From Mucilaginibacter geliditolerans (GTDB lineage Bacteria > Bacteroidota > Bacteroidia > Sphingobacteriales > Sphingobacteriaceae): a stretch of DNA of 64,000 nucleotides. The stretch covers positions 1,415,738-1,479,737 of the forward strand of contig NZ_JACHBY010000001.1 of assembly GCF_014200495.1 (NCBI RefSeq), given 5' to 3'. Made by a program: the position numbers and the translations under genes. The notes below the pieces were generated by a model. That model did not search any database, was not told where the DNA came from, and was given only the letters and a program-made list of their open reading frames with translations. Below are positions 20,226 through 39,570 of this stretch, in pieces (positions within the stretch are counted from its first letter, which is position 1; each line of letters starts with the position of its first letter).

Positions 20226-20603
20226 ATGATAGCAGGTTTAGGTATTGATATGATTGAGGTGGACAGGATAGCTGAGAAGATCAACAAAGAAAGCGGTTTC
20301 AGGGAGTTGATATTCTCGGCAAATGAAATAGCTTACTGTGAATCAATGACCAACAAATTTGAATATTATGCCGCCCGTTTTGCCGCTAAGGAAGCTTTTT
20401 ACAAGGCATTAGGCACAGGCTGGCTGGAGGGAACGGCATTTAACGAAATAGAAATAGTGCATACCACTAGCGGCAAACCCGAATTTAAGTTTACCGGGGC
20501 AACAGCTACCATAATTGACCTGATGGAATTCAGCGCTGTTTCGGTATCACTAACACATCTAAAGGCAACGGCTTCGGCAGTAGTAATTATAGAGAAGAAA
20601 TGA
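20226..20603 (+). CDS. acpS: holo-[acyl-carrier-protein] synthase
   Basis: This 125-residue AcpS-type phosphopantetheinyl transferase moves 4'-phosphopantetheine from CoA to the active-site serine of an ACP. The G-I-D-M-I-E-V-D-R-I magnesium-binding motif is at the N terminus, and A-A-K-E-A-F-Y-K-A-L lies near residue 60. Length is normal for the family. It opens the first arm of the flexirubin-type cluster and overlaps the next gene by four bases (ATGA). It could serve the housekeeping ACP as well as the cluster's two ACPs. A second, different transferase closes the cluster at 38905. Confidence 0.93.
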   Translation: MIAGLGIDMIEVDRIAEKINKESGFRELIFSANEIAYCESMTNKFEYYAARFAAKEAFYKALGTGWLEGTAFNEIEIVHTTSGKPEFKFTGATATIIDLMEFSAVSVSLTHLKATASAVVIIEKK

Positions 20604-21898
20604 GAGCATTTTTACAGGAAAAAGTTCAGCAAAAAATTGAGCAGACAGCGGCCATGCAGGAACAGAAATTACAGGAACTTTTGCTATATGTCGCTCAAAA
20701 TTCGCCGTTTTATAAGGAGCTGTTCGCGAAGCATAACATCAATATCAGCGATATAAAAACCATTGCTGATCTGTCCAAAATACCCACTACTACAAAAGAC
20801 GATTTGCAACAGCGCAACAATGATTTCCTGTGCGTTCCTGCAGAAAAGGTGATAGAATATACTTCAACATCAGGCACACTGGGCAGTCCGGTTACCATAG
20901 CCCTTACTGAAAACGACCTGCAACGATTAGCTTATAACGAGTACAGCTCATTCCAATGTGCAGATGGTTCAAAGGATGATACTTATCAACTGATGCTTAC
21001 GCTCGACAGGCAGTTTATGGCGGGAATCGCTTATTATTTGGGCATCCGTAAGCTTGGGGCAGGCATCATCAGATTGGGCCCGGGTGTACCGTCACTACAA
21101 TGGGAAACCATTAAGCGGTTAAAGCCAACTGCTATTGTAGCTGTGCCCTCGTTTATTCTGAAACTGATACAATACGCTAAGGATACCGGCATCAACATAC
21201 ACGAAACATCAGTTAAAAAGGCCATTTGTATTGGCGAAAATATCCGCAATACCGATTTCTCCCTTAATATTTTAGGTCGAAAGATAACTGAAACCTGGGA
21301 TATCAAACTCTATTCGACCTATGCCTCTACCGAAATGCAAACCGCGTTTACGGAGTGCAAAGAAGGCAAAGGCGGGCATTATCAGCCCGAACTGGTAATT
21401 GTTGAACTATTGGATGAGAATAATGAGCAAGTTGCTCCCGGTACCCCCGGCGAAGTAACCATCACCACCCTCGGCGTTGAGGGTATGCCTTTATTACGCT
21501 ATAAAACAGGCGATATCTGCATGTATTATGATGAGCCTTGCGCCTGCGGCAGAACGAGCCTACGCCTGTCGTCCATCATGGGCCGTAAAAAGCAGATGAT
21601 CAAATTTAAGGGTACAACACTATACCCTCCTGCCCTGTTCGACCTGCTGAATGAGCGCGAAGAGATCCTGGATTTTGTGATCGAGGTGTACTCCAACGAG
21701 ATCGGACTCGACCAGGTGCTGATCTATATCGTACCATCAGAGATCAGCGAAGAATGTGACCACCGCATCCGCGCCTACTTACAGGCAAGGTTGAGGGTGA
21801 GCCCGCATATCAAATACCTGACTGCCGAAGCTATACAGAAAATGCAATTCAGTGAAGCCAGCCGGAAAGCAATTAAGTTTATTGATAAAAGAGCGTAA
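20600..21898 (+). CDS. phenylacetate-CoA ligase-like adenylating enzyme
   Basis: This 432-residue ANL-superfamily enzyme of the PaaK type has a P-loop-like S-T-S-G-T-L-G-S near residue 90, the adenylate-binding Y-A-S-T-E-M and the R-Y-K-T-G-D hinge. A C-terminal lid follows with R-K-K-Q-M-I-K-F-K-G. In flexirubin and aryl-polyene clusters this position is taken by an enzyme that activates the aromatic starter acid (coumarate or cinnamate type) and loads it onto ACP or CoA. A Cys cluster near residues 310-314 (C-A-C-G) resembles the zinc-binding loop of PaaK. The gene overlaps acpS upstream, and the tyrosine ammonia-lyase follows after 87 bases. Confidence 0.88.
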   Translation: MRAFLQEKVQQKIEQTAAMQEQKLQELLLYVAQNSPFYKELFAKHNINISDIKTIADLSKIPTTTKDDLQQRNNDFLCVPAEKVIEYTSTSGTLGSPVTIALTENDLQRLAYNEYSSFQCADGSKDDTYQLMLTLDRQFMAGIAYYLGIRKLGAGIIRLGPGVPSLQWETIKRLKPTAIVAVPSFILKLIQYAKDTGINIHETSVKKAICIGENIRNTDFSLNILGRKITETWDIKLYSTYASTEMQTAFTECKEGKGGHYQPELVIVELLDENNEQVAPGTPGEVTITTLGVEGMPLLRYKTGDICMYYDEPCACGRTSLRLSSIMGRKKQMIKFKGTTLYPPALFDLLNEREEILDFVIEVYSNEIGLDQVLIYIVPSEISEECDHRIRAYLQARLRVSPHIKYLTAEAIQKMQFSEASRKAIKFIDKRA

Positions 21899-21985
21899 AC
21901 ACTTAGCGTCTTTTTGTGTTAAACCGTTTTGTATTTAATTTATACATTTACCCCTTAATATTTATTCATCTTTTTATACAATAAT

Positions 21986-23542
21986 TTGCCCGTGATACTT
22001 GTTGGACAAAGCCCGCTTACGCTCGAAGATTTTTCTGAAATATTATTCAATAACCAGCCGGTTGCTTTAAATGAAGCCGCTGTAGCCAAGGTTAAAACCA
22101 ATTTTGAATTTCTTAAAAAGTTCTCATCCAATAAGCTCATCTACGGCATCAATACTGGCTTTGGGCCGATGGCGCAGTATAAGGTGAACGAGGAAAATAT
22201 TCTTCAGCTACAATATAATTTAATCCGCAGTCATTCGTCCGGCAGCGGTAAATTAATGAGTGCTGATCTTTCAAAAGCCCTGATGGTAGCCCGCTTGAAC
22301 AGCTTTATGCAAGCTTACTCAGGTGTACATACCGAAGTAATTGAGTTGCTAAAGGAACTCATTAACAATAGTATCAGTCCTTGCATTTATGAGCATGGTG
22401 GTGTAGGTGCCAGCGGCGATTTAGTTCAGCTTGCACATTTAGGCCTGGTTTTAATTGGCGAGGGTGAGGTCATTTTCGAAAATGCTGTTCACCCAACCAT
22501 CGACATTTTCAATCGCTTTAATATAAAACCACTTTCCATCCATATCCGCGAGGGTTTGGCTATTTTGAATGGCACTTCGGCCATGACGGGTATCGGGATG
22601 CTGAATATTATCCAAGCACAGAAATTATTGAACTGGTCGCTGATGTTTTCAGCCATGATCAATGAAATCGTTGAGGCGTTTGACGATCATTATTCGCAGG
22701 AGCTGAACGCGGTAAAACTGCACAGGGGCCAGAACAAAATAGCATCCCTGATGCGCGATATTTTGAAGGACAGCCACATGATTCGCGACCGCTCCGAGCA
22801 TTTATATAATCCGGACAACCTGGATCAGGAAGTATTTGAGGACAAAGTACAGGAATACTACTCCCTGCGTTGCGTTACACAGGTTTTAGGGCCAATATAT
22901 GATACCATCATTCAGGCCGAAGAAGTGGTGGTGAACGAGATCAACTCAGTTAATGATAACCCGGTTATCGATCATGAGAACCATAACATTTTCCACGGGG
23001 GTAACTTCCATGGCGATTATGTGTCGCTGGAAATGGATAAACTAAAGATAGCTATCACCAAGCTTTCCATGCTTTCAGAAAGGCAATTAAATTACCTGCT
23101 GAACAACAAGTTGAACCAAAAACTGCCGCCTTTTGTAAACCTGGGCGTATTAGGCTTCAACTTCGGGATGCAGGGCATGCAGTTTACAGCAACTTCAACC
23201 GTGGCTGAAAATCAAACGCTATCCTTCCCGATGTATGTGCACAGCATACCGAATAATAACGATAACCAGGACATTGTAAGCATGGGCTGTAATGCCGCGC
23301 TGATGACCAAGCGTGTGGTTGATAATTCATTCGAGGTTTTGGCTATTCAATTAATGACCATTTTACAGGCTATTGATTATTTGGAATGCCAGGACAGGCT
23401 ATCTTCTATCTCGCGCTCGTTATATGACAAGGCAAGGGCAATTTTCCCTAAATTTGTGCAGGATCAGCCTAAATATAAAGATTTGAAAAACGTGAAGGAG
23501 TTTTTAGAAAGTTCGGAACATATCAAAGCTTTCGCAAAATGA
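21986..23542 (+). CDS. aromatic amino acid ammonia-lyase, probably tyrosine ammonia-lyase
   Basis: This 518-residue lyase of the HAL/PAL/TAL family should turn tyrosine into 4-coumarate, the flexirubin starter. The MIO prosthetic group would form from A142-S143-G144 in H-G-G-V-G-A-S-G-D. Catalytic Tyr53 lies in I-Y-G-I-N-T-G-F-G. The selectivity pair is Ser82-His83 (L-I-R-S-H-S-S-G), which looks histidine-like. From memory, the Flavobacterium johnsoniae tyrosine-specific enzyme has the same pair and long identical stretches, including the H-S-I-P-N-N-N-D-N-Q-D-I-V-S-M-G segment. The start is TTG 21986 with no ATG available; GTG 21992 is an alternative. The end overlaps the reductase gene by four bases. 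Confidence 0.9.
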   Translation: MPVILVGQSPLTLEDFSEILFNNQPVALNEAAVAKVKTNFEFLKKFSSNKLIYGINTGFGPMAQYKVNEENILQLQYNLIRSHSSGSGKLMSADLSKALMVARLNSFMQAYSGVHTEVIELLKELINNSISPCIYEHGGVGASGDLVQLAHLGLVLIGEGEVIFENAVHPTIDIFNRFNIKPLSIHIREGLAILNGTSAMTGIGMLNIIQAQKLLNWSLMFSAMINEIVEAFDDHYSQELNAVKLHRGQNKIASLMRDILKDSHMIRDRSEHLYNPDNLDQEVFEDKVQEYYSLRCVTQVLGPIYDTIIQAEEVVVNEINSVNDNPVIDHENHNIFHGGNFHGDYVSLEMDKLKIAITKLSMLSERQLNYLLNNKLNQKLPPFVNLGVLGFNFGMQGMQFTATSTVAENQTLSFPMYVHSIPNNNDNQDIVSMGCNAALMTKRVVDNSFEVLAIQLMTILQAIDYLECQDRLSSISRSLYDKARAIFPKFVQDQPKYKDLKNVKEFLESSEHIKAFAK

Positions 23543-24267
23543 AATGCGCACTGATCACCGGCGGCTCACGTGGGATTGGCAGGGCTATCTGCATCAAAAT
23601 GGCAGCTCTGGGCTACTATATTTTGGTGAACTACAAAAGCAATACTACAGAAGCTGATAAAACCATCGCGCTTATAAAAGAAGCAGGCGGCAATGGCGAA
23701 CTGCTGCAATTTGATGTAGCCGATAAGGACCAGATAAAACAAACACTCGGCGGCTGGATTGACGCCAACGAAGAAAAACACATTGAGGTACTGGTAAACA
23801 ATGCCGGTATCCGTGATGATAGCCTGATGGCGTGGATGGCCGAAGAGCAATGGGATAACGTAATAAAAACCAACCTCGACAGCTTCTTCTACGTTACCCG
23901 GCTGGTTTTAAACGGCATGCTGCAACGCAAATACGGGCGCATTGTTAACGTGGTATCGCTCTCGGGCATAAAAGGACTGGCGGGGCAAACCAATTATTCT
24001 GCTGCTAAAGCGGGTGTAATTGGTGCTACAAAGGCGTTAGCTCAGGAAGTTGGCCGACAAGGAATCACTGTAAATGCCCTTGCTCCCGGTTTTATAAAGA
24101 CTGATATGACCGACGGGCTTGACGAAAAAGAACTAAAATCGATCATCCCCGTAAAACGCTTTGGGTTACCCGAAGAAGTGGCACATGCGGCGGCGTTTCT
24201 GGCATCGCCAGAAGCGGCATATATTACGGCACAAGTATTGTCCATTAACGGCGGACTATATTCATAG
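23539..24267 (+). CDS. 3-oxoacyl-ACP reductase, FabG-like SDR
   Basis: This 242-residue classical SDR has the NADPH site G-G-S-R-G-I-G (9-15), N-N-A-G, a catalytic Ser in V-V-S-L-S-G, and Tyr-x3-Lys in Y-S-A-A-K. The C terminus is the usual F-L-A-S-P-E-A-A-Y-I-T-A-Q-V-L segment. It should reduce the beta-keto group after each extension on the aryl polyene. It overlaps the lyase by four bases and is followed after three bases by a dehydratase gene. No enoyl reductase is encoded in this arm, which fits retention of double bonds. Confidence 0.92.
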   Translation: MKCALITGGSRGIGRAICIKMAALGYYILVNYKSNTTEADKTIALIKEAGGNGELLQFDVADKDQIKQTLGGWIDANEEKHIEVLVNNAGIRDDSLMAWMAEEQWDNVIKTNLDSFFYVTRLVLNGMLQRKYGRIVNVVSLSGIKGLAGQTNYSAAKAGVIGATKALAQEVGRQGITVNALAPGFIKTDMTDGLDEKELKSIIPVKRFGLPEEVAHAAAFLASPEAAYITAQVLSINGGLYS

Positions 24268-24270
24268 CTT

Positions 24271-24693
24271 ATGATTTTCCCGGTTGAAGATATTATCCCT
24301 TTAATACCACAAAAGCCCCCTTTTGTGATGGTTGACAAGCTGCTTTTTGTGGATGATGACACCACACGCAGCAGCCTTGTTGTTAAGGCTGACAATGTAC
24401 TGGTTAAAAACAACCATTTTCAGGAAGCAGGATTATTGGAGAACATTGCCCAAACAGCCGCGCTAAGAGCAGGATATTTGGCACATACCGAAAACAAACC
24501 CGTAAAATTGGGCTATATAGGTGCGGTAAAGGATCTTGAGATATTCGGTTTGCCAAAGGTGGGCCATGAACTGATAACCGAGATCACCATAATTGATACT
24601 ATTTTTGATGTGACCGTTATTGCGGGCAAAGTTTGGCATAAGAATCAATTACTGGCCCAATGCGAAATGAAGGTATTTACTGTTAACGAATAA
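24271..24693 (+). CDS. 3-hydroxyacyl-ACP dehydratase, FabZ-like hotdog protein
   Basis: This 140-residue single hotdog domain has the catalytic His in K-N-N-H-F and Glu in L-L-E-N-I-A-Q-T-A-A, the FabZ arrangement in a diverged form. It should dehydrate 3-hydroxyacyl intermediates to trans-2-enoyl chains. It has tight spacing after the reductase (three bases) and before the ketosynthase (eight bases). It is one of three hotdog proteins in the cluster and one of two with both catalytic residues. Confidence 0.88.
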   Translation: MIFPVEDIIPLIPQKPPFVMVDKLLFVDDDTTRSSLVVKADNVLVKNNHFQEAGLLENIAQTAALRAGYLAHTENKPVKLGYIGAVKDLEIFGLPKVGHELITEITIIDTIFDVTVIAGKVWHKNQLLAQCEMKVFTVNE

Positions 24694-24701
24694 TTTATAT
24701 A

Positions 24702-25847
24702 ATGAGCGGGATAACTCAACAGGATGTTTTTATAGTTACTGATAATGTATTAACTCCGCTCGGGAAAACCACAGCTGAAAACTTCGCGAAGCTAAAGGAA
24801 GGTATTTCAGGCGTAAAGGAGCATTACCGCACTGCCATTTCACCCCTGTCGTTTTTTGCTTCGCTGTTCGATCAGGATGAGCAGATCTTGAAAGCTGATG
24901 AACACGATTACACCAAATTTGAGCAATTATTGGTAGCCTCCATTGCTGATGCGCTGAATGGCAGTGGAATTGATATACGCGATAAAAAAACAATACTCAT
25001 CATCTCCTCTACCAAAGGCAATATCAGCCTGCTGGAAGATGGCATCAATAACATCGAACTAAAAAACAGGATCTCGTTATCAACATCAGCAAAACTGGTA
25101 GCCGAGCACTTCGGCTTTCAGAATAAGCCGATAGTAGTTTCCAATGCCTGCATTTCGGGGGTATTGGGTATCATAACTGCTATGCGCCTGTTACGCTCCG
25201 GCGAATATGAGCATGCAGTTGTTGCCGGGGCAGATGTGATCTCCAGGTTTATCATGTCAGGCTTTCAGTCGTTCCAGGCTTTGAGCCCTCAACAATGTAA
25301 ACCGTTTGATCAGGCACATGATGGCTTAAACCTGGGCGAAGGTGCGGCAACGATCATCCTATCCACCAATGAAAAATACGCGCAAAATATAAAGGTAAAG
25401 GGCGGTTCAGTAAGTAATGATGCCAACCATATATCAGGACCGTCACGCACCGGGGAGGAGCTTGCCGGGGCTATAAAACAGGCATTAAAAGATGCTGATC
25501 TGTCGCCATCAGATATCGACTTCATCTCAGCCCACGGCACAGCTACAGTTTATAATGATGAGATGGAAGCAAATGCCATATCCATAGCAGGCTTACAGAA
25601 AGTGCCTACAAATAGCCTGAAAGGTTATTACGGGCATACTTTAGGCGCAGCAGGATTGATCGAATCGATCATCTCCATTCAATCCTTAAAGCAAAACCTG
25701 ATTTTACCAACCATAGGGTTCAAGGAAGCTGCAAACGCCGATAAAGTGAATGTTTTAGCTGACGCAAAGCGGATTAAAGCTAATAACTTTCTGAAAACAG
25801 CATCGGGTTTTGGCGGTTGTAATGCAGCCGTGATTTTTGGCAAATAA
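24702..25847 (+). CDS. beta-ketoacyl-ACP synthase (KAS I/II-type), catalytic residues intact
   Basis: This 381-residue thiolase-fold condensing enzyme has the nucleophile Cys150 in S-N-A-C-I-S-G. Catalytic histidines are in I-S-A-H-G-T-A-T and Y-Y-G-H-T-L-G-A-A-G. It should carry out malonyl-ACP condensations of the aryl-polyene chain. It is somewhat shorter than FabF (about 410), with a diverged N terminus. It is followed by a 205-residue ketosynthase-like protein lacking catalytic residues, a plausible partner subunit. Confidence 0.9.
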   Translation: MSGITQQDVFIVTDNVLTPLGKTTAENFAKLKEGISGVKEHYRTAISPLSFFASLFDQDEQILKADEHDYTKFEQLLVASIADALNGSGIDIRDKKTILIISSTKGNISLLEDGINNIELKNRISLSTSAKLVAEHFGFQNKPIVVSNACISGVLGIITAMRLLRSGEYEHAVVAGADVISRFIMSGFQSFQALSPQQCKPFDQAHDGLNLGEGAATIILSTNEKYAQNIKVKGGSVSNDANHISGPSRTGEELAGAIKQALKDADLSPSDIDFISAHGTATVYNDEMEANAISIAGLQKVPTNSLKGYYGHTLGAAGLIESIISIQSLKQNLILPTIGFKEAANADKVNVLADAKRIKANNFLKTASGFGGCNAAVIFGK

Positions 25848-25883: not shown

Positions 25884-26501
25884 TTGCTTACAGACAAATA
25901 TATAACCGCCAGTTGCACCATAAATAAAGGTGTGGTAAGTAAGAATGGTATAAAGCTATTTGAAAACGATACTAATATAGCCGCACTGCTGCTATCCACC
26001 TACCAGCACTTACAGCTGAATTATCCCAAATTTTATAAAATGGATAATCTGAGCAAACTAGGTTGGTTAACTGCCGAGGTATTGCTAAAGGATGGTTTTA
26101 AAAAAGACGATTATCAGCCTGAAGATATCAGCGCAATACTGACCAATGCCAACAGCAGTTTGGATGATGACATAAAATATTTGGATAGTATAAAGGATGT
26201 GGCTAGTCCATCGTTATTTGTTTACACTTTGCCCAATATTGTGATCGGCGAGATTTGTATCCGCAATCATTTTAAGGGCGAGCAGGCTTTTTATATTCAG
26301 GATGAATTTGATGCCGATTTTATGGCGCAGCAGGTAAATTATCAACTGGATAACAACATTTCGCAAGCCTGCATATGCGGTTGGGTTGATGTTTTGGAGC
26401 AGGATTATAAGGCGGTATTGTTTTTGGTTGAAAAGAAGCGGAATGAAAATTCAGTGGAATTTTCGGCGAAGAATATGAGGAAGATATTTAATAAGGATTA
26501 A
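25884..26501 (+). CDS. short ketosynthase-like protein without catalytic residues
   Basis: This 205-residue protein lies between two ketosynthase genes. It appears to keep only an N-terminal thiolase-fold half. The segment S-L-F-V-Y-T-L-P-N-I-V-I-G-E-I-C-I-R-N-H aligns by eye with the region before the active site of ketosynthases. The nucleophile Cys and the C-terminal histidine motifs are missing. It may be a partner or chain-length subunit, or a structural protein. The start is TTG 25884 at normal spacing; no ATG lies near. Family recognition is tentative and rests on context. Confidence 0.72.
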   Translation: MLTDKYITASCTINKGVVSKNGIKLFENDTNIAALLLSTYQHLQLNYPKFYKMDNLSKLGWLTAEVLLKDGFKKDDYQPEDISAILTNANSSLDDDIKYLDSIKDVASPSLFVYTLPNIVIGEICIRNHFKGEQAFYIQDEFDADFMAQQVNYQLDNNISQACICGWVDVLEQDYKAVLFLVEKKRNENSVEFSAKNMRKIFNKD

Positions 26502-26667: not shown

Positions 26668-26694
26668 TATATAAATACGACAATAAAAGAGTAT

Positions 26695-27894
26695 ATGAGT
26701 TCATCAGTTTACATAGCGGGCGTGGGTGCAATTTCGGCCATTGGTAACAATGTTGCTGAACACCTGGCATCCTTTAAAAACGAGGAGGCCGGCATGGGCG
26801 ATATCACCTTGCTGGATACCATCCACCGCCAAAAACTACCCGTTGCTGAAGTGAAACTAAGCAATGATGAACTGGTTGCCATAACAGGGCTGCCGAAAAA
26901 TATTAGTCGTACTACCCTACTGAGCATGGTTGCCGCCAATGAAGCACTTACTGATGCCGCTATACCTGATTTTGGTTCCTTGCGTACGGGCTTTGTCTCC
27001 GCAAACTCGGTTGGCGGGATGGACAAAAGCGAAGATTTCTTTATTGATTTTTTAGCTGATAATAACAAGGGCAAACTCAGAAATATTTTCGATCATGAAT
27101 GCGGCAGCATGACGGAGCTTGTTGCCGATAAACTAGGCGTGAGTGATTTCATGACCACCATCAGCACCGCCTGCTCATCATCGGCCAACGCTATATTTTA
27201 TGCCGCGCGACTAATTAAAAACGATATACTGGATGTAGTTATAGCAGGTGGAACCGATGCGCTCACCAAATTCACGCTCAATGGCTTTAATACGCTGATG
27301 ATACTGGATAAAGAATTTTGTAAACCCTTTGATGAGCACCGTGAGGGCCTGAATTTAGGCGAGGGCGCAGGTTATGTGGTACTGGTATCAGAAAAAGTAA
27401 TGCAGACATTAGCCAAAGCGCCTTATTGTAAGCTAAGCGGTTACAATAACAGTAATGACGCTTATCATCAAACCGCATCATCGCCGGATGGTACAGGCTC
27501 ATACCTGGCCATGCAGGGCGCTTTAAAGAAAAGCGGACTAACACCTGCGGATATAGATTACATCAACTTACACGGCACCGGAACGCCTAATAACGACAGT
27601 GCTGAAGGTACAGCTATTAAAAGATTGTTTGATCCATCCTACCCGCCTATGAGCTCTACCAAATCTTATACCGGGCATACATTAGGTGCAAGCGGTGGCA
27701 TTGAGGCGGTATTTTCGGTACTGGCAATAAAACATGGCATCATTTACCCCAACCTGCGCTTTGAAACCCCAATGGATGAACTGCCTTTTGAACCTGAAAC
27801 AAAATATTTAAGCGGACAGGATATCAAGCACGTTATGTCGAACTCATTTGGCTTCGGCGGCAATTGTACATCATTAATATTTTCGAGGATCTGA
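26695..27894 (+). CDS. beta-ketoacyl-ACP synthase, catalytic residues intact
   Basis: This 399-residue KAS I/II-type condensing enzyme has nucleophile Cys160 in I-S-T-A-C-S-S-S and histidines in I-N-L-H-G-T-G-T-P and Y-T-G-H-T-L-G-A-S-G. The start is taken as ATG 26695 because the frame open upstream from TTG 26626 runs through the repeat and gives residues unlike the family. It is followed after one base by a ketosynthase-like gene without catalytic residues. The pair looks like the KS and chain-length-factor heterodimers of type II polyketide and aryl-polyene synthases. Confidence 0.9.
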   Translation: MSSSVYIAGVGAISAIGNNVAEHLASFKNEEAGMGDITLLDTIHRQKLPVAEVKLSNDELVAITGLPKNISRTTLLSMVAANEALTDAAIPDFGSLRTGFVSANSVGGMDKSEDFFIDFLADNNKGKLRNIFDHECGSMTELVADKLGVSDFMTTISTACSSSANAIFYAARLIKNDILDVVIAGGTDALTKFTLNGFNTLMILDKEFCKPFDEHREGLNLGEGAGYVVLVSEKVMQTLAKAPYCKLSGYNNSNDAYHQTASSPDGTGSYLAMQGALKKSGLTPADIDYINLHGTGTPNNDSAEGTAIKRLFDPSYPPMSSTKSYTGHTLGASGGIEAVFSVLAIKHGIIYPNLRFETPMDELPFEPETKYLSGQDIKHVMSNSFGFGGNCTSLIFSRI

Positions 27895-28979: not shown

Positions 28980-29360
28980 ATGACTGCAATAGCTAACGAC
29001 ATATTTAACATTGACAGCATAACCCACGCAAATGAGTCTATCGAAGCTATCCTCAGCATAAATAGCGGCAGCACCATATTTGATGGCCATTTCCCCGGTC
29101 AGCCGGTGGTACCGGGCGCCTGTATGCTACAGGTGGTTAAGGATGTTTTGGAAAATGTGCTGAGCGGGTCATTCCAACTAAAAAAAGCAGGCAATATTAA
29201 GTTTATCTGTATGATCATACCATCGTTAAATGATATGATACAGCTGGAGATTACCTATAAGCTTATTGATGACAGCGTTAATGTGAACGCCAAACTGGTT
29301 AGTAATGATGTGATCTGCTTTAAATTTCAGGGGAACTTTGTGGAATCTGGTAAAAGATAA
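28980..29360 (+). CDS. hotdog-fold 3-hydroxyacyl-ACP dehydratase-like protein
   Basis: This 126-residue protein has the FabA/FabZ signature F-D-G-H-F-P-G-Q-P-V-V-P-G-A with its catalytic His. The position of the usual catalytic Glu appears to be Gln (A-C-M-L-Q-V-V), so dehydration may be impaired or the protein may bind rather than process the acyl chain. It is the last gene of the plus-strand arm. After it comes a non-coding repeat block, then a convergent ACP gene. Confidence 0.84.
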   Translation: MTAIANDIFNIDSITHANESIEAILSINSGSTIFDGHFPGQPVVPGACMLQVVKDVLENVLSGSFQLKKAGNIKFICMIIPSLNDMIQLEITYKLIDDSVNVNAKLVSNDVICFKFQGNFVESGKR

Positions 29361-29767: not shown

Positions 29768-29775
29768 TGGGGCAA

Positions 29776-31811: not shown

Positions 31812-32815
31812 TTTATATTCTTTAAAGTTTCAAAAGCCTGTTTCTCTACTTCTGCAATTTCAAGCAGGTAATCGCCCATTATATTAAAATCTTCCTGACT
31901 GCCTATGCGGCCCTTATATATCCCGGCAGCATGTACGGCGGCATTGCGCCACATGTCACCGGTCTTTGTAAACATTACCGAATATTCGGCCAATTGGTTG
32001 CCTGGCAAATACGCATCGGCCTCCTGCAAAAATGCGCCGTAAATATACCTAAATCCACCACCACCTGTGCCTATCTCCTCCTGCATGCGCACCATTTGGG
32101 CCAAATACAGTTTCGATATTTCAATGCCCAGCTTATCGCGCCACTTTTTTATTTTGTTGCCTGTATTTCTAATGCCCGAGATCCCCGCAAAACTGCCCGG
32201 TATACTCAGCATGTTATAAACGTTTTTCTTTATCCCGTTCTTAATGGCCTGTTTCATCACCTCATCGGTGATAATAGCACCTTTTTTAGGGTAATAAATC
32301 AACCCGTTAGGTGCAAGCGCGCCTTTGGCAAAACGTACACGCTCCAGTTCATAACTACTCATTACGTTAGTACTTTCCATTATGGGGTCGCTCACCAGGT
32401 AATTGTCGCCATCCATGCCATAAACAATCAGGTTATGGGCATTAAAGTGAAATCGGTATTCCCTCGGGAAATAAGGCAGATAATAAACCCCTACCTGGCA
32501 ACCCACCGGGTTACCGTTATCTAAACATTCCTTTAAATAAGTCTCGGCCTTTTCTTTTGAGCTGAACTTTTTACTCACAATAGGTATCCCTAGTGATTTT
32601 GCCGTACGCTTAAATATATACCCCGGAAATGTGCGAAAAGCTATCGCAGGCCCATTGTTAACTTTTATAAAAGGGATATAAGCGAAAAATAAGCCCGCGC
32701 CAATGCCAAAAGCTAATGGCTCGGTTATCTTCCCCCCTGAACTGATACTTAATAAATTGCTGGTAACGCCCGATTCACAGTGTGCGGCCTGACGGTGCTC
32801 AAACTCAATTTTCAT
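31802..32815 (-). CDS. BtrH N-terminal domain protein, probable acyltransferase
   Basis: This 337-residue protein has a papain/C39-like N-terminal half as in BtrH, which in butirosin synthesis moves an acyl group from a carrier protein to an aminoglycoside. A likely nucleophile is Cys13 (A-A-H-C-E-S-G). A His lies in N-A-H-N-L-I-V-Y-G-M-D-G and an Asp in Y-L-V-S-D-P. A helical C-terminal part follows (about 190-337, DUF4872-like). Placed between DarB and a transporter, it is a candidate for moving the aryl-polyene acid from ACP onto the dialkylresorcinol. It overlaps both neighbours by about 10 bases. Confidence 0.82.
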   Translation of the reverse strand: MKIEFEHRQAAHCESGVTSNLLSISSGGKITEPLAFGIGAGLFFAYIPFIKVNNGPAIAFRTFPGYIFKRTAKSLGIPIVSKKFSSKEKAETYLKECLDNGNPVGCQVGVYYLPYFPREYRFHFNAHNLIVYGMDGDNYLVSDPIMESTNVMSSYELERVRFAKGALAPNGLIYYPKKGAIITDEVMKQAIKNGIKKNVYNMLSIPGSFAGISGIRNTGNKIKKWRDKLGIEISKLYLAQMVRMQEEIGTGGGGFRYIYGAFLQEADAYLPGNQLAEYSVMFTKTGDMWRNAAVHAAGIYKGRIGSQEDFNIMGDYLLEIAEVEKQAFETLKNIKWQ

Positions 32816-33212
32816 GAACGGTCATAGTTTTCAGGTCCTCGACCTCTATATTAAACGCCTCAGCGTATTTTTCTAATTGTTTGTCGGATAATTTATTGAA
32901 TACCCCAGGCTTTAAATGCCGTTTGATCTGCCATTGCCAAAAGCCGGTATAGCCCGCTAAAATTGCTGTATCCATCAGCCTGTATTCCATAAAAAACAAC
33001 AGCGGACTGGCCTTATGACTTAACACCTGCTCTTTAGCAGCAGTAATACGCTTCTGAATTTCTTCCCAGGCTACATCAAGCGCGGTTATCTTCACTTCCC
33101 AACCGCTGCTCAGTTCGGCATTATACTTGCCCTCGCTGTCAGTAGCATAGCAAATCTCCTTGGTAATTTTACCAAGTGCGCTTACATCCTGCGGTATTTC
33201 TTCCTTCTTCAT
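32805..33212 (-). CDS. conserved-looking protein of unknown function in the pigment cluster
   Basis: This 135-residue soluble protein is Lys/Glu-rich, mostly alpha-helical in the second half, with a W-E-V-K-I-T-A-L-D-V-A-W-E-E segment in the middle. No signal peptide or metal motif is visible, and I do not recognise a family. Its end overlaps the BtrH-like gene by 11 bases, and it starts 24 bases after darB stops. The close coupling suggests it acts with the BtrH-like protein, for example as a partner or chaperone. Confidence 0.7.
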   Translation of the reverse strand: MKKEEIPQDVSALGKITKEICYATDSEGKYNAELSSGWEVKITALDVAWEEIQKRITAAKEQVLSHKASPLLFFMEYRLMDTAILAGYTGFWQWQIKRHLKPGVFNKLSDKQLEKYAEAFNIEVEDLKTMTVHEN

Positions 33213-33236: not shown

Positions 33237-34385
33237 TTAGCAAACGGTAAGCATGGCATACATGTATGAAAAACGTGCACTTTCAGGAACCAATAGCAAT
33301 ATCTTTTCGCCTTTCTTCAGCTTGCCACTTTTAAACAATTCATCTATCATCAAATAAACTGATGCCGCGCCTACATTACCAACGGTATACAAGTTAATAA
33401 ACCATTTTTCATACGGGATCCCGCCGCCGTATTCCTCAATCATATCATAGATCTTGCTTTTGAAAAAGTTGCTCGATATATGCGGCAAAAACCAGTCAAT
33501 ATCAGTTACATCCAAACCTTTCTTTTCAAATATCTCTCTTATTTTTCGGCCACCTAAAGGCACAATATTATCGCTCAGTAAAGTAATATCCTGTTTTACG
33601 CTGAATATAGATTTGGTCATGATCTCTTCCGGCGTATAATCCATAAAGCCGGTCAACGAGCCATCAGCTTGTTTATCGCCGCCCATATACATACAGGTAT
33701 CCATTTCGTTGGCGTATGATACACCTTCTATCCACTCGATTCGTAGGCTCAGGCCTTCCGGGTTGGGCTTATCGGTCATTAAAAACGCCGATGCCCCATC
33801 AGACAGCATCCACCTTAAAAAATCCTTTTGAAAAGCGATATATGGGTTTTCCTCCATCGCTTTCAGGCTCTGTGCTTCTTCCTCAAAAACTTCTGACACT
33901 AATAGACCCGAAAACCTTTCTGATCCGGTAGCAACCGCAGTTTTAACCTCGCCTGCCTTTATAGCCAGGTAAGCAAATTTTAAGGCATGCATACCTGCAC
34001 AGCAAACACCTGATGGCGATACCACCTCAATGCCACCAGCCTCGGGCAACCAGCCATGCGTCATTACGCCGTGACTCGGCATCATCTGGTCGGGCGATGA
34101 AGTACCGCAGGAGAGCAATTCAATTTGCTTTAATTTTTCAGGATCATTATCAAATAATTCCCTAACGGCAAGGGCCGTCATCTGGGCATTGGTATGGGTT
34201 GATTTATGTTCTTTATTCAAGGCATAATAACGGTTAATGATGCCGTTATTACGGAGTACAATTTTCTTTGATTTTGATGGTTTGTTATCAATATAACCTA
34301 AATATGATTCCATCTCGTCGTTTGAAACGGGCTCATTCGGAAAATAGGCCGAGGTATGATTGATATAAACTTTGGTATCAGACAT
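33237..34385 (-). CDS. darB: DarB-like 3-oxoacyl-ACP synthase III
   Basis: This 382-residue KAS III-type condensing enzyme is of the class that joins beta-ketoacyl units with DarA to form 1,3-cyclohexanedione precursors of dialkylresorcinols. The Cys nucleophile lies in S-G-V-C-C-A-G-M (Cys128 or Cys129), His in F-L-P-H-I-S-S-N, and Asn in T-V-G-N-V-G-A-A-S. The family fit is strengthened by direct adjacency to DarA (eight bases). The symbol follows the DarA/DarB pair of flexirubin and dialkylresorcinol clusters. Confidence 0.88.
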   Translation of the reverse strand: MSDTKVYINHTSAYFPNEPVSNDEMESYLGYIDNKPSKSKKIVLRNNGIINRYYALNKEHKSTHTNAQMTALAVRELFDNDPEKLKQIELLSCGTSSPDQMMPSHGVMTHGWLPEAGGIEVVSPSGVCCAGMHALKFAYLAIKAGEVKTAVATGSERFSGLLVSEVFEEEAQSLKAMEENPYIAFQKDFLRWMLSDGASAFLMTDKPNPEGLSLRIEWIEGVSYANEMDTCMYMGGDKQADGSLTGFMDYTPEEIMTKSIFSVKQDITLLSDNIVPLGGRKIREIFEKKGLDVTDIDWFLPHISSNFFKSKIYDMIEEYGGGIPYEKWFINLYTVGNVGAASVYLMIDELFKSGKLKKGEKILLLVPESARFSYMYAMLTVC

Positions 34386-34393
34386 ATTATATA

Positions 34394-35296
34394 TCAGTTA
34401 TTTACTTGTAAGTATTTTAATTTTTGTGCTTTTATCCTGCGGGATGAAAACGGCCTTAAAAAAACAGCATCTAATGTAAGCAAAACCGGGGCACCTAAAA
34501 ATAATGCAATAAAAAGATAATATTTAAAGGCCGAAAGCCATGGTACGCGGTTCTTTCGCTTTGATATAAACTTAGCCCAAACCGCAAATATGGGCTTGGC
34601 CCTGGCCTCAATAAACATCAGCTTATATTTTATTACAACTGCCTTTTGTTCCAGCAGCGCATCCTGTAATCCATCCCACGATGTTTTGTTCAGGTGTTCT
34701 TCAATAATCTCACCAAATACTTTGGTATTGGCTATATCTTCTTCGGCAACACCGGGCTTAGGGAAAATGTTAAGGTATTTGTCTTTTTTGCCCGATAACA
34801 TCCAATAAAAGATGGTGACAAAGCTTACCACATTCGCATGCCTGTCGGCCAAAGCAATATTGCCCACCAGGTTTGCCCCTGCATCCTTTAGCATATTGCG
34901 TACACGTACATAAGCGTTTATCCACATGTTACGTGCAGCGCTGATGGTTACTACCGGGGTATCTTTAAGCAAAGCTTTAAAAGTATCATCATTAAGCAAC
35001 GAATTGCTGGGTATGCTTGGCGATAAAAACCATGGCTGATAGCCCATAATAATCAGATCGTACTTCGCCTCCTCAAAAACCAATGGGTCCAAAGGCGCGG
35101 GAATCCCCAGTACGCATGATGGCATCACCGAAAAAAAGCGGCTGCCTGTCCACGGGAAATTATAATCATCAACAGGCTTAATGATCACTTTTTCAACAGA
35201 TTCGCCTGCCGCCGTAAGCGGCGCAGTCAATGAATCAATGATCTCCGTCATCTGACCCGATTGGGTGTAATATATAGCTAAGACCTTTTTATTCAT
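34394..35296 (-). CDS. darA: DarA-like dialkylresorcinol condensing enzyme
   Basis: This 300-residue protein has a flavodoxin-like N terminus (A-I-Y-Y-T-Q-S-G-Q) and the characteristic V-F-E-E-A-K-Y-D-L-I-I-M-G-Y-Q-P-W segment. A hydrophobic helix lies near residues 262-285 (F-I-A-L-F-L-G-A-P-V-L-L). DarA catalyses aromatisation or condensation to the dialkylresorcinol together with DarB. The C-terminal helix suggests membrane association. It lies just upstream of darB. Confidence 0.88.
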   Translation of the reverse strand: MNKKVLAIYYTQSGQMTEIIDSLTAPLTAAGESVEKVIIKPVDDYNFPWTGSRFFSVMPSCVLGIPAPLDPLVFEEAKYDLIIMGYQPWFLSPSIPSNSLLNDDTFKALLKDTPVVTISAARNMWINAYVRVRNMLKDAGANLVGNIALADRHANVVSFVTIFYWMLSGKKDKYLNIFPKPGVAEEDIANTKVFGEIIEEHLNKTSWDGLQDALLEQKAVVIKYKLMFIEARAKPIFAVWAKFISKRKNRVPWLSAFKYYLFIALFLGAPVLLTLDAVFLRPFSSRRIKAQKLKYLQVNN

Positions 35297-35331
35297 TTGG
35301 GGCGAAGTTAAAAACTATCTTTTTAGTACAA

Positions 35332-35844
35332 TTAAAAATCTTCTGCATGCAGCACCTTTGAGTTCTTGCAATAATCAAGTATAGCATGCTGCACCGATGG
35401 CGATAAGTTTTTATAATTCTTTTGCACTATGGCCTTATCCTTATCAATATCACTATGGTATTTAACAATTTTAGGGGCATGTTCTTCAATAGCTAGCCTT
35501 AAAAAATGAAACTCCGTATTCTCATCGTCGGCAGCTATGGCTGTTTCCAGCTTTATACGGCCTGCCTTAAAAAGGTCGAGCCTTGTTTTGGCGCCTTTAA
35601 CCAGGCCCGCCTTTCGCATCAGCATGGCACCTTCATAACCTTCTTTACTAGCTATTGAGCTGCCCTGTATAACAGTAAGTTGATTTTCAACAGCGGCCAG
35701 ATCGCCTGATGCCATTGTATCATAAAATGCGGACTTCTTAAATTCTTGCTGGGCAATGCCTTTTTGCATAAACCCGGCAATAAGCAGGAAAACAGCTATA
35801 AACCCTATTTTCCACTTTATATTAATTCTCATGCTATCAAACAT
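35332..35844 (-). CDS. small exported protein heading the darA operon, unknown function
   Basis: This 170-residue product has a hydrophobic signal segment (about 12-31, ending G-I-A-Q-Q). ATG 35832 is an alternative start giving a shorter leader. The mature domain is helical and rich in Lys, Ala and Asp, probably periplasmic. Helix pairs suggest a TPR-like or bundle fold, but no family is recognised. It precedes darA by 35 bases, so it may belong to the pigment operon and help move or store product in the envelope. Confidence 0.75.
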   Translation of the reverse strand: MFDSMRINIKWKIGFIAVFLLIAGFMQKGIAQQEFKKSAFYDTMASGDLAAVENQLTVIQGSSIASKEGYEGAMLMRKAGLVKGAKTRLDLFKAGRIKLETAIAADDENTEFHFLRLAIEEHAPKIVKYHSDIDKDKAIVQKNYKNLSPSVQHAILDYCKNSKVLHAEDF

Positions 35845-36083: not shown

Positions 36084-36902
36084 ATGGATAAACAATTACA
36101 ATTCTCAGGTTTATGGGCAGTTATCTTAGGTGGATCGAGCGGATTTGGCTTTGCAGCCATTGAAAAACTTGCTAAGCATGGTATGAACATCGCCGTACTA
36201 TACCGCGAAACCTCTGCTGCCGAAAAAATATTGAAAGAAAAATTCGCGGCGCTTACTGAGCAGTATTCCATTAAGATATTATCGCACAATATAAATGCCC
36301 TCGATCAGGTGAGCCGGGCTCAATTTATTGAGGAATTTAGCACCCAGGCTGATAAGCACAGCGTAAAACTGCTGCTCCACAGCATAGCAAGAGGCAATCT
36401 AAAGCCACTAACCATACCCGGCGCAACAGTTGAGGACGAAGCCTATAATGAGCTTTCCATCGAAGATATCCAACTGACCACCTATGCCATGTCGAACAGT
36501 TTGCTCGACTGGACAAAAGCTATCCTGAAAGCAGAATTATTTAATGAGGATGGCCGCATTATTGGCCTTACCAGCGAGGGCGCACACAAGTACTGGGAAG
36601 GCTACGCCGCGGTATCCATTGCCAAGGCATCGCTGGAGAGCCTGGCAAAATATATGGCAGTGGAGTTTAGCGTTTACGGCTTAAAAACCAATGTGATACA
36701 GGCTGGTGTAACCGAAACTGCATCGCTAAAAAAGATCCCTGGCAGTGAAAAATTAATTAAGGCTGGTATCAAGAGAAATCCCCTTGGCAGAATAACAAAA
36801 CCAGAAGACGTTGCCGGTGTTATATACCTGCTATGTACAGATGAGTCGTTCTGGATCAACGGTTCTATTATTCATGTAGATGGCGGAGAACATTGCCGGT
36901 AA
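36084..36902 (+). CDS. enoyl-ACP reductase-like SDR
   Basis: This 272-residue SDR has the cofactor site G-G-S-S-G-F-G-F and a Tyr-x6-Lys pair (Y-A-A-V-S-I-A-K). That spacing is the hallmark of FabI/FabL-type enoyl reductases rather than FabG (Tyr-x3-Lys). The segments L-L-H-S-I-A-R and G-L-T-S-E-G-A also resemble FabI. It should reduce 2-enoyl-ACP to saturated acyl-ACP. It heads a four-enzyme unit with dehydratase, ketosynthase and ACP, suggesting these make the saturated alkyl chain of the resorcinol moiety. Confidence 0.8.
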   Translation: MDKQLQFSGLWAVILGGSSGFGFAAIEKLAKHGMNIAVLYRETSAAEKILKEKFAALTEQYSIKILSHNINALDQVSRAQFIEEFSTQADKHSVKLLLHSIARGNLKPLTIPGATVEDEAYNELSIEDIQLTTYAMSNSLLDWTKAILKAELFNEDGRIIGLTSEGAHKYWEGYAAVSIAKASLESLAKYMAVEFSVYGLKTNVIQAGVTETASLKKIPGSEKLIKAGIKRNPLGRITKPEDVAGVIYLLCTDESFWINGSIIHVDGGEHCR

Positions 36903-36920
36903 AACACAATATTACAATAC

Positions 36921-37382
36921 ATGAACAATCATATATTAAACCATCTTCCATATAAATCGTCTTTTCGTTTTGTTGATAATATATCATTACTAAGCGAAGA
37001 CGAAGTGATAGGAGAATATAAATTAAGAAAGGATGCCTTTTTTTACGAGGACCATTTCGCGGGCAACCCGGTTACACCCGGCGTTATCATAACCGAAATT
37101 ATGGCACAAATAGGCCTTGTGGTTTTAGGCATTTTTTTGGTAATGAAGGAAACTGAATTTAATTTCAGTGATGATGATTCGCTTTACCCCTTGCTTACAT
37201 CAACTGATGTTTCCTTTTACAAAATGGTGTTGCCTGATGAAAAGGTTACAGTCGTTTCCAAAAAACAATACTTCCGCTACGGAAAGCTGAAATGTTATGT
37301 GGAGATGCTCGACAGTAAAAAGGAACTGGTGGCAAAAGGTATGTTTTCGGGCATTATAAAGCATATTGATATTAAAAAATGA
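36921..37382 (+). CDS. 3-hydroxyacyl-ACP dehydratase (FabZ-like)
   Basis: This 153-residue hotdog protein has both catalytic residues in the expected places: His in Y-E-D-H-F-A-G-N-P-V-T-P-G and Glu in I-I-T-E-I-M-A-Q-I. It should dehydrate 3-hydroxyacyl-ACP in the second chain-building unit. Its last four bases overlap the start of the ketosynthase gene (ATGA). Confidence 0.91.
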   Translation: MNNHILNHLPYKSSFRFVDNISLLSEDEVIGEYKLRKDAFFYEDHFAGNPVTPGVIITEIMAQIGLVVLGIFLVMKETEFNFSDDDSLYPLLTSTDVSFYKMVLPDEKVTVVSKKQYFRYGKLKCYVEMLDSKKELVAKGMFSGIIKHIDIKK

Positions 37383-38647
37383 GCAGGCGCGTAGTGGTAA
37401 CGGGTATGGGTGTGGTTGCTCCTAACGGTATAGGAGTACCAGCTTTTCTGCAGGCTATACAAAATGGCGTATCGGGCATAAAGTTCATGCCCCGTTACCA
37501 GGAACTTAATTTTAGCTGCCAGGTAGCAGGTATGCCCAATTTCGACTGGGCCAGCCTGAGCAACTATATATCAGATGTTACGCTACACGGGTTAAAAGGC
37601 ACCAACATAGGTTATGGCTTAGTTGCCGCTTTGGACGCCTGGGCCGATTCGGGCATTGCTTATGACACTGATGAGCCTCGCTGGGAAACCGGCTGCGTAT
37701 TCGGTAACAGTATCGCCGATACCGAGGCCATGAAGAATGTAATTATCCGCGTTGATAACAAGGAAGCCAAAAAATTAGGCTCGCGCGTAGTTGAACAGGC
37801 TATGAATAGTGGTGTAACCTCTTATATCTCGGGCCGCTTAGGTTTGGGCAATAAGGTGATCACTAATTCGGCGGCATGCGCCACGGGTACACAGGCCATT
37901 TTAATGGGCTATGAGTATATAAAACACGGCTATGCCAAACGCATGGTTGTTGGCAGCGCCGAGCATGTGGACACTTATGTTTACGGCGCGTTCGACTCTA
38001 TGCGGGTATTATCCCGTAAGTATAATGATCAGCCCGAGAAAGCATCGAGGCCAATGAGTGCAACAGCGGGTGGTTTTATCCCCGGTTCGGGCTCGGGCGC
38101 ATTGGTGTTGGAGGACCTTGATTTTGCACTGGAACGCGGAGCGAGAATATATGCCGAGGTTTTAGGCGGATCGAGCAACTCGGGCGGGCAGCGTTTGGGC
38201 GGCACCATGACTGCAGCTAACTCCACCGGTGTTATCAGGTGTATTAATGAGGCAATTACCACATCAGGTATTGACCCTCAGCAAATTGACCTAATTAGCG
38301 GACACTTAACCGCCACAAATGCCGACAGGCAGGAGATACAGAATTGGGCAAAAGCGCTTAACAGAACTGGGGAGGATTTTCCGCTAACCAATTCGTTAAA
38401 ATCAATGATAGGCCATAGCCTTAGCGCAGCAGGTTCAATTGAAACCGTGGCATCGATATTGCAAATAGCACATGGTTTTGTTCATCCAAACATAAATCTG
38501 GATGATCCGAACCCCGAAATAATAAATATGGTAAGCATTGATAAGCTGCCCATTAAAATGATAAAAAAAGAAGTTAATATTGTAGCTAAAGCAAATTTTG
38601 GCTTTGGGGATGTTAATTCCTGTTTAATACTTTCAAAATTTAATTAA
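37379..38647 (+). CDS. beta-ketoacyl-ACP synthase (FabF-like)
   Basis: This 422-residue KAS II-type enzyme starts with the R-R-V-V-V-T-G-M-G-V-V-A-P-N-G signature. It has Cys167 in S-A-A-C-A-T-G and histidines in I-S-G-H-L-T-A-T and M-I-G-H-S-L-S-A-A-G. All three are present, so it is an active condensing enzyme. It elongates chains on the ACP encoded three bases downstream. Length and motifs are closest to housekeeping FabF among the ketosynthases here. Confidence 0.92.
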   Translation: MSRRVVVTGMGVVAPNGIGVPAFLQAIQNGVSGIKFMPRYQELNFSCQVAGMPNFDWASLSNYISDVTLHGLKGTNIGYGLVAALDAWADSGIAYDTDEPRWETGCVFGNSIADTEAMKNVIIRVDNKEAKKLGSRVVEQAMNSGVTSYISGRLGLGNKVITNSAACATGTQAILMGYEYIKHGYAKRMVVGSAEHVDTYVYGAFDSMRVLSRKYNDQPEKASRPMSATAGGFIPGSGSGALVLEDLDFALERGARIYAEVLGGSSNSGGQRLGGTMTAANSTGVIRCINEAITTSGIDPQQIDLISGHLTATNADRQEIQNWAKALNRTGEDFPLTNSLKSMIGHSLSAAGSIETVASILQIAHGFVHPNINLDDPNPEIINMVSIDKLPIKMIKKEVNIVAKANFGFGDVNSCLILSKFN

Positions 38648-38650
38648 ATA

Positions 38651-38908
38651 ATGACCAGACAAGAGATTCTAGAAGAACTAAAAAAGGTGATCTCACCTTA
38701 CACAACCAATAAAGAAATGCTGGCTGAGATTAACGATCAGACAGACTTAATAAAGGACTTAAAAATAAATTCTGCCAATTTAGTTGATATCATTATTGAT
38801 GCCGAGGCTAAATATGATATCGAAATTGATTATGATGTTGCCGATAAAATGATGGTAGTTGGTACTTGTATCGACGTTATAAGCGAAAGAATCAGCCAGA
38901 AACTATGA
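38651..38908 (+). CDS. acyl carrier protein
   Basis: This 85-residue ACP has its attachment serine at S41 in a diverged site (K-I-N-S-A-N-L-V-D) instead of the usual D-S-L. The helix pattern and acidic residues fit. It sits between ketosynthase and phosphopantetheinyl transferase, overlapping the latter by four bases. The altered site and the adjacent dedicated transferase suggest matched specificity. Confidence 0.88.
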   Translation: MTRQEILEELKKVISPYTTNKEMLAEINDQTDLIKDLKINSANLVDIIIDAEAKYDIEIDYDVADKMMVVGTCIDVISERISQKL

Positions 38909-39570
38909 TAAGTACGGGTAATGATATTGTATCATTAAGTGCCATTGACGTTACCCGCACTAAACTGCCAAATTTTTATTCAAAAATACTTTCAACCCCG
39001 GAAAGTGTACTTTATAACGAAGCAGTAGCTGCCACACTCCCTTTTGAAAATTTCGTTTGGTTATTATGGTCGATAAAAGAATCGGCTTATAAATACCTGC
39101 AAAGGATCAACCCTGAGCTGATTTTTACACCCGTAATGGTTGTTGGAGATCAGTTACAGGTACCCCATGACTATAAACCAACAGCATTTGGTAAAAATGT
39201 ACTGTCGGGCGCGGGTTTCAGGGACCAGCAGACTTTTGATACCACCGTAACATTTGGGCAGGATACTATCTATTCAAAATCATTGGTATATACCGATGTG
39301 ATCGTAACGGTTGTGCATTCGAGCAAAAACTTTGAAGATACTTTTTGGGGTATAAAGTGGATTGATAATACCGATAATGAAAACCAATCAGCTGCTGTAA
39401 GGGAGTTTTTATTAGATAACCTGCATAAGCTATGCGGATTGGATAATATCATCATAGGTAAAAATCAAAACGCTATCCCCGTTTTGTTAAAAGGGTCGGA
39501 GGAAACTGATATCCCGGTATCCCTGTCACATCACGAGCATTTTGTAGCATATTCCTTTCAGCACTTTTAA
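38905..39570 (+). CDS. 4'-phosphopantetheinyl transferase superfamily protein
   Basis: This 221-residue protein starts at ATG 38905, which overlaps the ACP stop (ATGA). An upstream in-frame start would lie inside the ACP gene. It has the magnesium site G-N-D-I-V and the W-S-I-K-E-S-A-Y-K motif. The size suits an AcpS-related or Sfp-like enzyme and it differs strongly from AcpS at 20226. It should activate the ACP next to it. The last 11 bases (AGCACTTTTAA) recur at 40856 with the duplicated DUF779 segment. Confidence 0.86.
   Translation: MISTGNDIVSLSAIDVTRTKLPNFYSKILSTPESVLYNEAVAATLPFENFVWLLWSIKESAYKYLQRINPELIFTPVMVVGDQLQVPHDYKPTAFGKNVLSGAGFRDQQTFDTTVTFGQDTIYSKSLVYTDVIVTVVHSSKNFEDTFWGIKWIDNTDNENQSAAVREFLLDNLHKLCGLDNIIIGKNQNAIPVLLKGSEETDIPVSLSHHEHFVAYSFQHF

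Follow-up and report, generated by a model that had tools for sequence, protein, structure and literature searches.

Results

The gene cluster

The window considered here is the terminal 64 kb of contig 1 of Mucilaginibacter geliditolerans (genome 6.5 Mb), and at positions 20226-39570 it carries a compact gene cluster which is a variant of the known flexirubin type, that is, of clusters for yellow-orange pigments in which an aryl polyene is joined to a dialkylresorcinol (DAR). The cluster consists of three same-strand blocks (Table 1): the left, or polyene, arm on the plus strand, the dar operon on the minus strand, and a right arm again on the plus strand. FlxA, FlxB, FlxY, DarB, DarG and DarH all exceed the cut-offs of their NCBIfam models, which are models of the flexirubin pathway. 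The original prediction of a flexirubin-type cluster with two chain-building arms is supported, and an aryl-polyene/DAR ester is likewise the product predicted here. The open reading frames (ORFs) together with Pfam and NCBIfam scans also place every component listed there (lyase, ligase, reductases, hotdog proteins, ketosynthases, carrier proteins, phosphopantetheinyl transferases, DarA and DarB) where it had been put, and a sixth protein resembling a ketosynthase (KS) or chain-length factor (CLF), the 205-residue one of block 1, is to be added to the five noted before. The Flx letters other than A, B and Y were assigned by matching the gene order of loci L129 and L124 to the published text on genes A-Y; the Chitinophaga pinensis sequence is no part of their basis.

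Table 1. Genes of the compact cluster, in reading order within each block (ACP, acyl carrier protein; SDR, short-chain dehydrogenase/reductase; ABC, ATP-binding cassette; TPR, tetratricopeptide repeat)
Block	Gene or protein	Position	Strand	Basis
1	AcpS-type phosphopantetheinyl transferase (FlxX by position)	20226..20603	+	Pfam ACPS 4.5e-18; TIGR00556 95/45 bits
1	FlxY, 4-coumarate-activating acyl ligase	20600..21898	+	NF053551 683.5 bits, cut-off 520
1	FlxA, tyrosine ammonia-lyase	21986..23542	+	NF053541 854 bits, cut-off 700
1	FlxB, polyene-arm ketoreductase, YX3K motif	23539..24267	+	NF053542 386 bits, cut-off 340
1	Hotdog dehydratase-like protein (FlxF by position)	24271..24693	+	FabZ models, weak, best E 9.3e-6
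1	KS1 ketosynthase (FlxI by position), Cys-His-His kept	24702..25847	+	Pfam ketoacyl-synt
1	Short KS/CLF-like protein, 205 aa (FlxL by position)	25884..26501	+	profile match 6kxd_B "Ketosynthase", E 3.4e-4
1	KS2 ketosynthase (FlxN by position), Cys-His-His kept	26692..27894	+	Pfam
1	CLF-like KS (FlxO by position)	27896..28978	+	Pfam ketoacyl-synt, N half only
1	FabA/Z-like hotdog (FlxS by position)	28980..29360	+	Pfam FabA 2.8e-7
2	All-helical TPR-like protein, 170 aa, first dar operon gene	35332..35844	-	homologues and predicted model
2	DarA, DAR aromatase	34394..35296	-	place and homology to gene beside DarB elsewhere
2	DarB, DAR-forming ketosynthase	33237..34385	-	NF053539 634 bits, cut-off 550
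2	DarG	32805..33212	-	NF053545 194.5 bits, cut-off 170
2	DarH, BtrH-like acyltransferase	31802..32815	-	NF053550 449 bits, cut-off 300
2	ABC ATPase	31053..31811	-	Pfam PF00005 1.6e-33; top NCBIfam model drrA, under its cut-off
2	ABC-2 permease	29776..31053	-	Pfam PF12698 3.4e-31
2	ACP1, final dar operon gene	29504..29767	-	translation; GLDSID in 79/79
3	SDR of FabI/FabL type (YX6K), enoyl reductase of right arm	36084..36902	+	best solved relative 3oic, 1.1e-21
3	FabZ-like hotdog of right arm	36921..37382	+	Pfam FabA 1.7e-11
3	KS3 ketosynthase of right arm, Cys-His-His kept	37379..38647	+	Pfam; motifs
3	ACP2	38651..38908	+	sequence reading and place beside KS3
3	Phosphopantetheinyl transferase of right arm	38905..39570	+	Pfam ACPS 3.7e-6

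The two arms

The polyene-building KS, the KS-CLF, the ketoreductase and the dehydratases that belong to a flexirubin cluster are all present in the window. The YSAAK (YX3K) motif is kept in all 61 compared FlxB ORFs, the active-site motifs of KS1 were compared over 75 sequences, and in the KS tree KS2 clusters with the polyene ketosynthases (100/100), apart from the dar KS, the long-branch warning of this tree concerning another part of it. The CLF, with motifs compared by eye, does not have the catalytic Cys and His at their usual places. The first hotdog protein has no match in the Pfam scan, the FabZ models being its sole matches, and its orthologue adjoins the LpxL-like gene in L124/L129. 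As to starts, the FlxA ORF is listed from a TTG, with the NF053541 match beginning at residue 11, and that of KS2 from TTG 26626. The left arm offers reduction and dehydration and has no enoyl reductase, so that it would suit a polyene.

The right arm does have an enoyl reductase and would therefore suit saturated chains; for both arms the chemistry is inferred from motifs. The top PDB match of the right-arm SDR, 3oic, is a solved enoyl-ACP reductase, and the Tyr and Lys of YX6K are kept in 21 of 21 sequences, the motif being identical in 20. ACP2 gave no match in the Pfam scan, and the ORF of the accompanying transferase is listed from TTG 38866.

The dar operon and DarH

DarA was matched by neither the Pfam nor the NCBIfam scan; it is 37-45% identical to the gene adjacent to DarB in loci of Flavobacteriia and Sphingobacterium (43% in F. 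chilense). The TPR-like protein has a hydrophobic N-terminal helix, likely a signal peptide, and its predicted model reaches a predicted local distance difference test score (pLDDT) of 84.5. It also opens dar operons in other families, and in F. chilense and S. hungaricum distant homologues of it directly precede a glycosyltransferase gene. A plus-strand ORF, 29538-29798, lies over the ACP1 region and is taken as spurious, ACP1 being read on the minus strand.

The original prediction took the ABC-2 transporter and the BtrH-like protein as present instead of the MMPL exporter, LolA and the acyltransferase. This did not hold: both belong to the ordinary dar operon (Azoarcus, F. chilense, S. hungaricum) and are thus not substitutes, and F. 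chilense and S. hungaricum each have the BtrH-like/ABC dar operon in one cluster with export genes. Among the best 80 of 200 loci found via DarH, a set that by its selection says nothing on the frequency of DarH absence, ORF extraction recovered the permease in 78, DarG in 78, DarB in 77 and DarA in 75, some loci ending early; the nearest named relatives in this set are mostly Mucilaginibacter.

A class-wide sample has DarB over its cut-off in 54 of 395 genomes. From 26 genomes of this sample we compared 27 DarB regions (two regions come from one genome, four have DarB below the cut-off, some end at contig edges, and labels are best hits only). DarH is labelled in 20 of the 27, and in 16 of these an ABC ATPase is its neighbour; a homologue of the TPR-like protein is labelled ahead of DarA in 7 of the 27, and the right-arm SDR, hotdog, ACP2 and transferase genes in none. 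Two genomes (G478 and G449; loci L099, L100, L122) have two DarB genes over the cut-off each, in different settings.

DarH comprises the domains BtrH_N (PF14399, 9e-48) and DUF4872 (PF16169, 7e-52), and its Cys13, His127 and Asp143 are kept in all 81 compared sequences. Its predicted structure matches the structures of CtaG, AziU and CcbD. CtaG, of the closthioamide pathway, has a fold like that of the DarH model, and its variants C11A, H128A and D144N, known from PDB titles, are close in spacing to the Cys, His and Asp of DarH; AziU2/U3 of Streptomyces sahachiroi also share the fold. Identity is, however, only 12-15% to CtaG and AziU and 10-11% to CcbD. Other genera of Sphingobacteriaceae (G079, G146, G130 and others) contain a second DarH-like family, which scores some 165-195 bits over profile positions 8-324 and so falls short of the DarH cut-off; G079 carries both families.

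The absent lipid/export module

By position, FlxC-E, H, P-R and T-W, the lipid/export module of full clusters, are missing from the compact cluster. The predicted lack of MMPL, LolA and LpxL-like genes was borne out, none being in the cluster. Methyltransferase and halogenase genes, LolB, a polysaccharide deacetylase and FlxC, D, H and V are likewise not in the cluster, these having been looked for at the cluster only and not in the genome.

It had been suggested that the missing genes could lie elsewhere in the genome. Five queries from the F. chilense cluster (the MMPL-PlsC exporter of 1226 amino acids, the LpxL-like acyltransferase, GT2-DUF2062, the C45 acyltransferase and LolA) were searched for in nine genomes, namely this one, six other Mucilaginibacter, and a Flavobacterium and a Sphingobacterium as controls. 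Orthologues of the exporter, the LpxL-like acyltransferase and LolA2 were found in none of the seven Mucilaginibacter, this genome included, and in both controls (the exporter with E 0); the sole weak exporter-type match among the seven was in G007 (24%, E 1e-12). The glycosyltransferase is 100% and 59% identical in the controls; in the other genomes identity does not exceed 41%, and the matches cover the protein in part. The FlxW-like C45 acyltransferase was found in one of the two controls (not in G002), and five of the seven Mucilaginibacter have distant matches only (24-26%; in this genome 26% over query residues 54-365). The suggestion thus fails for the exporter, LpxL-like and LolA2 genes, and for the other two it finds distant family members only.

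Distribution in Sphingobacteriales

The same 300 genomes of Sphingobacteriales were searched for DarH, the exporter, FlxW-like C45 proteins (A4 profile) and FlxA, and the results joined. The thresholds were E <= 1e-40 for the exporter and FlxW, E <= 1e-180 for FlxA, and the NCBIfam cut-off for DarH, so that 25 genomes with DarH-like matches below it count as negative. Two candidates per genome were scored for the exporter and up to four for FlxW and FlxA, and weaker homologues may be missed. The genus of the window in this set is read as Mucilaginibacter on the ground that three of its genomes, G143, G207 and G134, share their FlxA coordinates with G003, G005 and G008, from which named loci come; these three and G000 therefore occur in both this and the seven-genome test.

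FlxA is present in 71 of the 300 genomes, including all 54 with DarH and all 42 with the exporter. These 71, which are related species and not independent events, divide into 25 that have both DarH and the exporter (2 Mucilaginibacter and 23 from other genera), 29 with DarH only (all Mucilaginibacter), 17 with the exporter only (one Mucilaginibacter, G170) and none with neither. The exporter is therefore missing in 29 of 31 DarH carriers of the genus, against 0 of 23 in other genera. All 28 genomes with FlxW have the exporter; FlxW occurs in 18 of the 54 DarH carriers, in none of the 29 that are exporter-free, and in 10 of the 17 exporter genomes without DarH. Within the genus, FlxA lies at most 15 kb from DarH in 23 of the 31 carriers, and farther away or on another contig in 8. 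Genomes in which FlxA is distant from DarH or on another contig include G043, G066, G074, G083, G099 and G187.

G170 presents another gene set. Its genes read FlxY, AcpS, C45, FAD protein, exporter, glycosyltransferase / FlxA, FlxB, KS, ACP, LpxL-like gene, hotdog, TE and KS1, and further on CLF, deacetylase, LolA and LolB. It keeps the exporter, LolA, LolB, the LpxL-like gene and FlxW, which the window cluster does not have; FlxA, FlxB and FlxY are 75%, 77% and 76% identical between the two. There is no DarH match in the genome of G170, and no dar gene is labelled within 56 kb. Its contig C1 (L114, L124) thus shows that aryl-polyene genes also occur within the genus unaccompanied by those for the resorcinol half.

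Near relatives and origin

Among 25 related loci of Mucilaginibacter and Chitinophagaceae type (L009-L033, best-hit labels), 11 have the whole left arm of the window, up to FlxA, in the same order, and 2 more agree as far as seen. The left arm is interrupted in L018, inverted in L022, and not beside the dar operon in L027; L029 and L030 end before it. The dar operon of the window is without the KS-CLF tail of other dar operons, and a dar-type KS is not in the window; L032 and L033 keep such a KS, with an extra KS-CLF after ACP1.

In the FlxA tree the window falls in a group of 11 rows (99/99) with other Mucilaginibacter, G170 and G674. In G674 the dar operon adjoins export and flx genes (L097, L129; visible up to the deacetylase), and an O-methyltransferase and a halogenase-type FAD protein stand between KS1 and the KS/CLF-like gene. 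In the DarH tree the window is nested in a group of other dar operons, and the Mucilaginibacter row L028 pairs with the Chitinophagaceae row L031 (97/85). The simplest reading would be that the compact cluster arose by loss from a full cluster.

At the cluster edge, a truncated DUF779 gene (39567-39821, minus strand) is identical in 76 of 79 residues to an intact one (40863-41237, minus strand), which adjoins an aldehyde dehydrogenase gene (41310-42812); an ankyrin-repeat gene lies between the two copies. The pair looks like a recent partial duplication.

Discussion

We are inclined to believe, with somewhat better than even confidence, that the cluster is of flexirubin type, reduced yet coherent, and that DarH makes the ester. 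FlxA would convert tyrosine to 4-coumarate, which FlxY would then activate. KS1, KS2-CLF, FlxB and both hotdog proteins of the left arm would extend it to an ACP-bound aryl polyene, with no enoyl-reduction step. KS3, ACP2, the FabZ-like dehydratase and the FabI/FabL-like reductase would supply saturated acyl chains; DarB and DarA would condense two of these and aromatise the result to a 2,5-dialkylresorcinol. Cys13 of DarH may then accept the polyenoyl chain from the ACP and pass it to a resorcinol hydroxyl, giving the ester, and the ABC-2 pair would carry the product across the inner membrane. Considering that the cluster has no methyltransferase or halogenase gene, the expected product is an unmethylated, unchlorinated 4-hydroxyphenyl polyene ester of DAR, unless such genes lie elsewhere.

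Of the published clusters, that of Flavobacterium johnsoniae is a single locus of 37 kb, and in C. pinensis the dar genes stand apart from flxA-flxY (PMC3992019); loci of F. chilense and G674 served as stand-ins for them. FlxA, FlxB, FlxY, the polyene KS/CLF, hotdog genes, DarA and DarB are common to them and the window, whereas the window additionally has a right arm and is by position without FlxC-E, G, H, J, K, P-R and T-W. The dar set of Azoarcus sp. BH72 includes BtrH-like, ABC ATPase, ABC permease and ACP genes and shares with the window DarA, DarB, a small conserved protein, the BtrH-like protein, the ABC pair and the ACP; it differs in having the KS darJ in the set and the polyene and export genes at other loci, and in its product, arcuflavin, a xanthomonadin-DAR hybrid, where a flexirubin type is predicted here (PMC3949708). 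The Azoarcus letters darE and darH are not equal to those of NCBIfam. In 2014 both the joining of polyene to resorcinol and the part played by the export genes were matters of proposal, and in the open-access literature we found no later answer to either, no flexirubin cluster without the export module, and no mention of DarH as an ester synthase.

Several points weigh against our reading. The first concerns the acceptor. CtaG is described as acting on an amine, and BtrH and CcbD, the latter of the celesticetin pathway, likewise have amine acceptors. The acceptor proposed for DarH is a phenol, and an ester-forming role of DarH is a proposal by analogy. Secondly, since DarH is labelled in only part of the class-wide DarB regions, DAR clusters without DarH exist. 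Thirdly, LolA2 and LolB2 are reported to be conserved in flexirubin-making Bacteroidota, and compact clusters without LolA2 either break this rule or make no flexirubin. Fourthly, no ACP is encoded within the polyene arm itself, and no pigment report was found for exporter-free species. Fifthly, G025 and G304, the two Mucilaginibacter with both sets, have the exporter and FlxW at another locus (glycosyltransferase, exporter, FAD protein, C45), with no other cluster gene labelled within about 20 kb on either side. Finally, the site of FlxB is visible in 18 related loci, of which 11 have the gene there and 7 do not (L009-L012, L015, L022, L033), the neighbouring genes being intact; L010, L011, L012 and L015 also have neither left hotdog gene at the locus, and L022 has no first hotdog. 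Some close relatives may thus not make a reduced polyene from the locus alone: either the genes have moved, or general fatty-acid enzymes substitute, or the chain is unreduced.

This last observation, together with the right arm not being seen in other dar clusters, gives rise to the alternative that the product is no flexirubin and that a coumaroyl-primed chain is instead joined to DAR in some other ester or conjugate. It would account for the absence of right-arm labels from the 27 class-wide regions, for a dar operon without the usual KS-CLF tail, and for the clean absence of FlxB and both left hotdogs in four relatives. The window itself, however, retains FlxB and both hotdogs, and six of its proteins are called by NCBIfam models for the flexirubin pathway; we consider this alternative rather unlikely.

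It may also be that polyene and DAR are both made and that another enzyme, C45/FlxW-like and encoded elsewhere, or for example DarG, forms the ester, DarH being otherwise employed. FlxW was indeed proposed in 2014 for the joining, and this genome does contain the distant C45-type match described above. Set against this are the distribution of FlxW, which none of the exporter-free DarH genomes carries, and the predicted fold of DarH with the Cys, His and Asp set of carrier-linked transferases, and we think such an arrangement improbable.

Partial decay of the cluster, the loss of the export/lipid module leaving a silent or intracellular product, would fit the many canonical genes gone, the distant FlxA in 8 of 31 carriers and the FlxB and hotdog gaps at related loci, but it is the least credible explanation given that the cluster ORFs are open in the window, that catalytic motifs are kept in the compared genes, that each of the 54 genomes with DarH retains FlxA, and that the FlxA of the window shares 98-99% identity with that of its nearest relative.

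Returning to the coherent cluster with DarH as ester synthase, a broader scheme may tentatively be proposed, to which we give somewhat less than an even chance. An aryl-polyene pigment could be finished in either of two ways, separable from each other, and would need one of them: a lipid/exporter route (the LpxL-like gene, MMPL-PlsC, LolA and FlxW) or a resorcinol-ester route (the dar operon, with DarH as the synthase and the ABC pair as the exporter). Many flexirubin makers would hold both, while most DarH carriers of the genus would have been pared to the resorcinol route and G170 to the lipid/exporter route; the ester bond would be formed by DarH and not by FlxW.

Conclusions

The compact cluster shows that the resorcinol half of the pathway can occur without the export/lipid module. 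Being without FlxW, the exporter, LolA2 and LpxL-like genes, it narrows the question of the joining step to a few genes, DarH foremost, and it offers a 19-kb set for transfer to a laboratory host. It is, in our opinion, a good place to find the enzyme that joins the two halves of the pigment.

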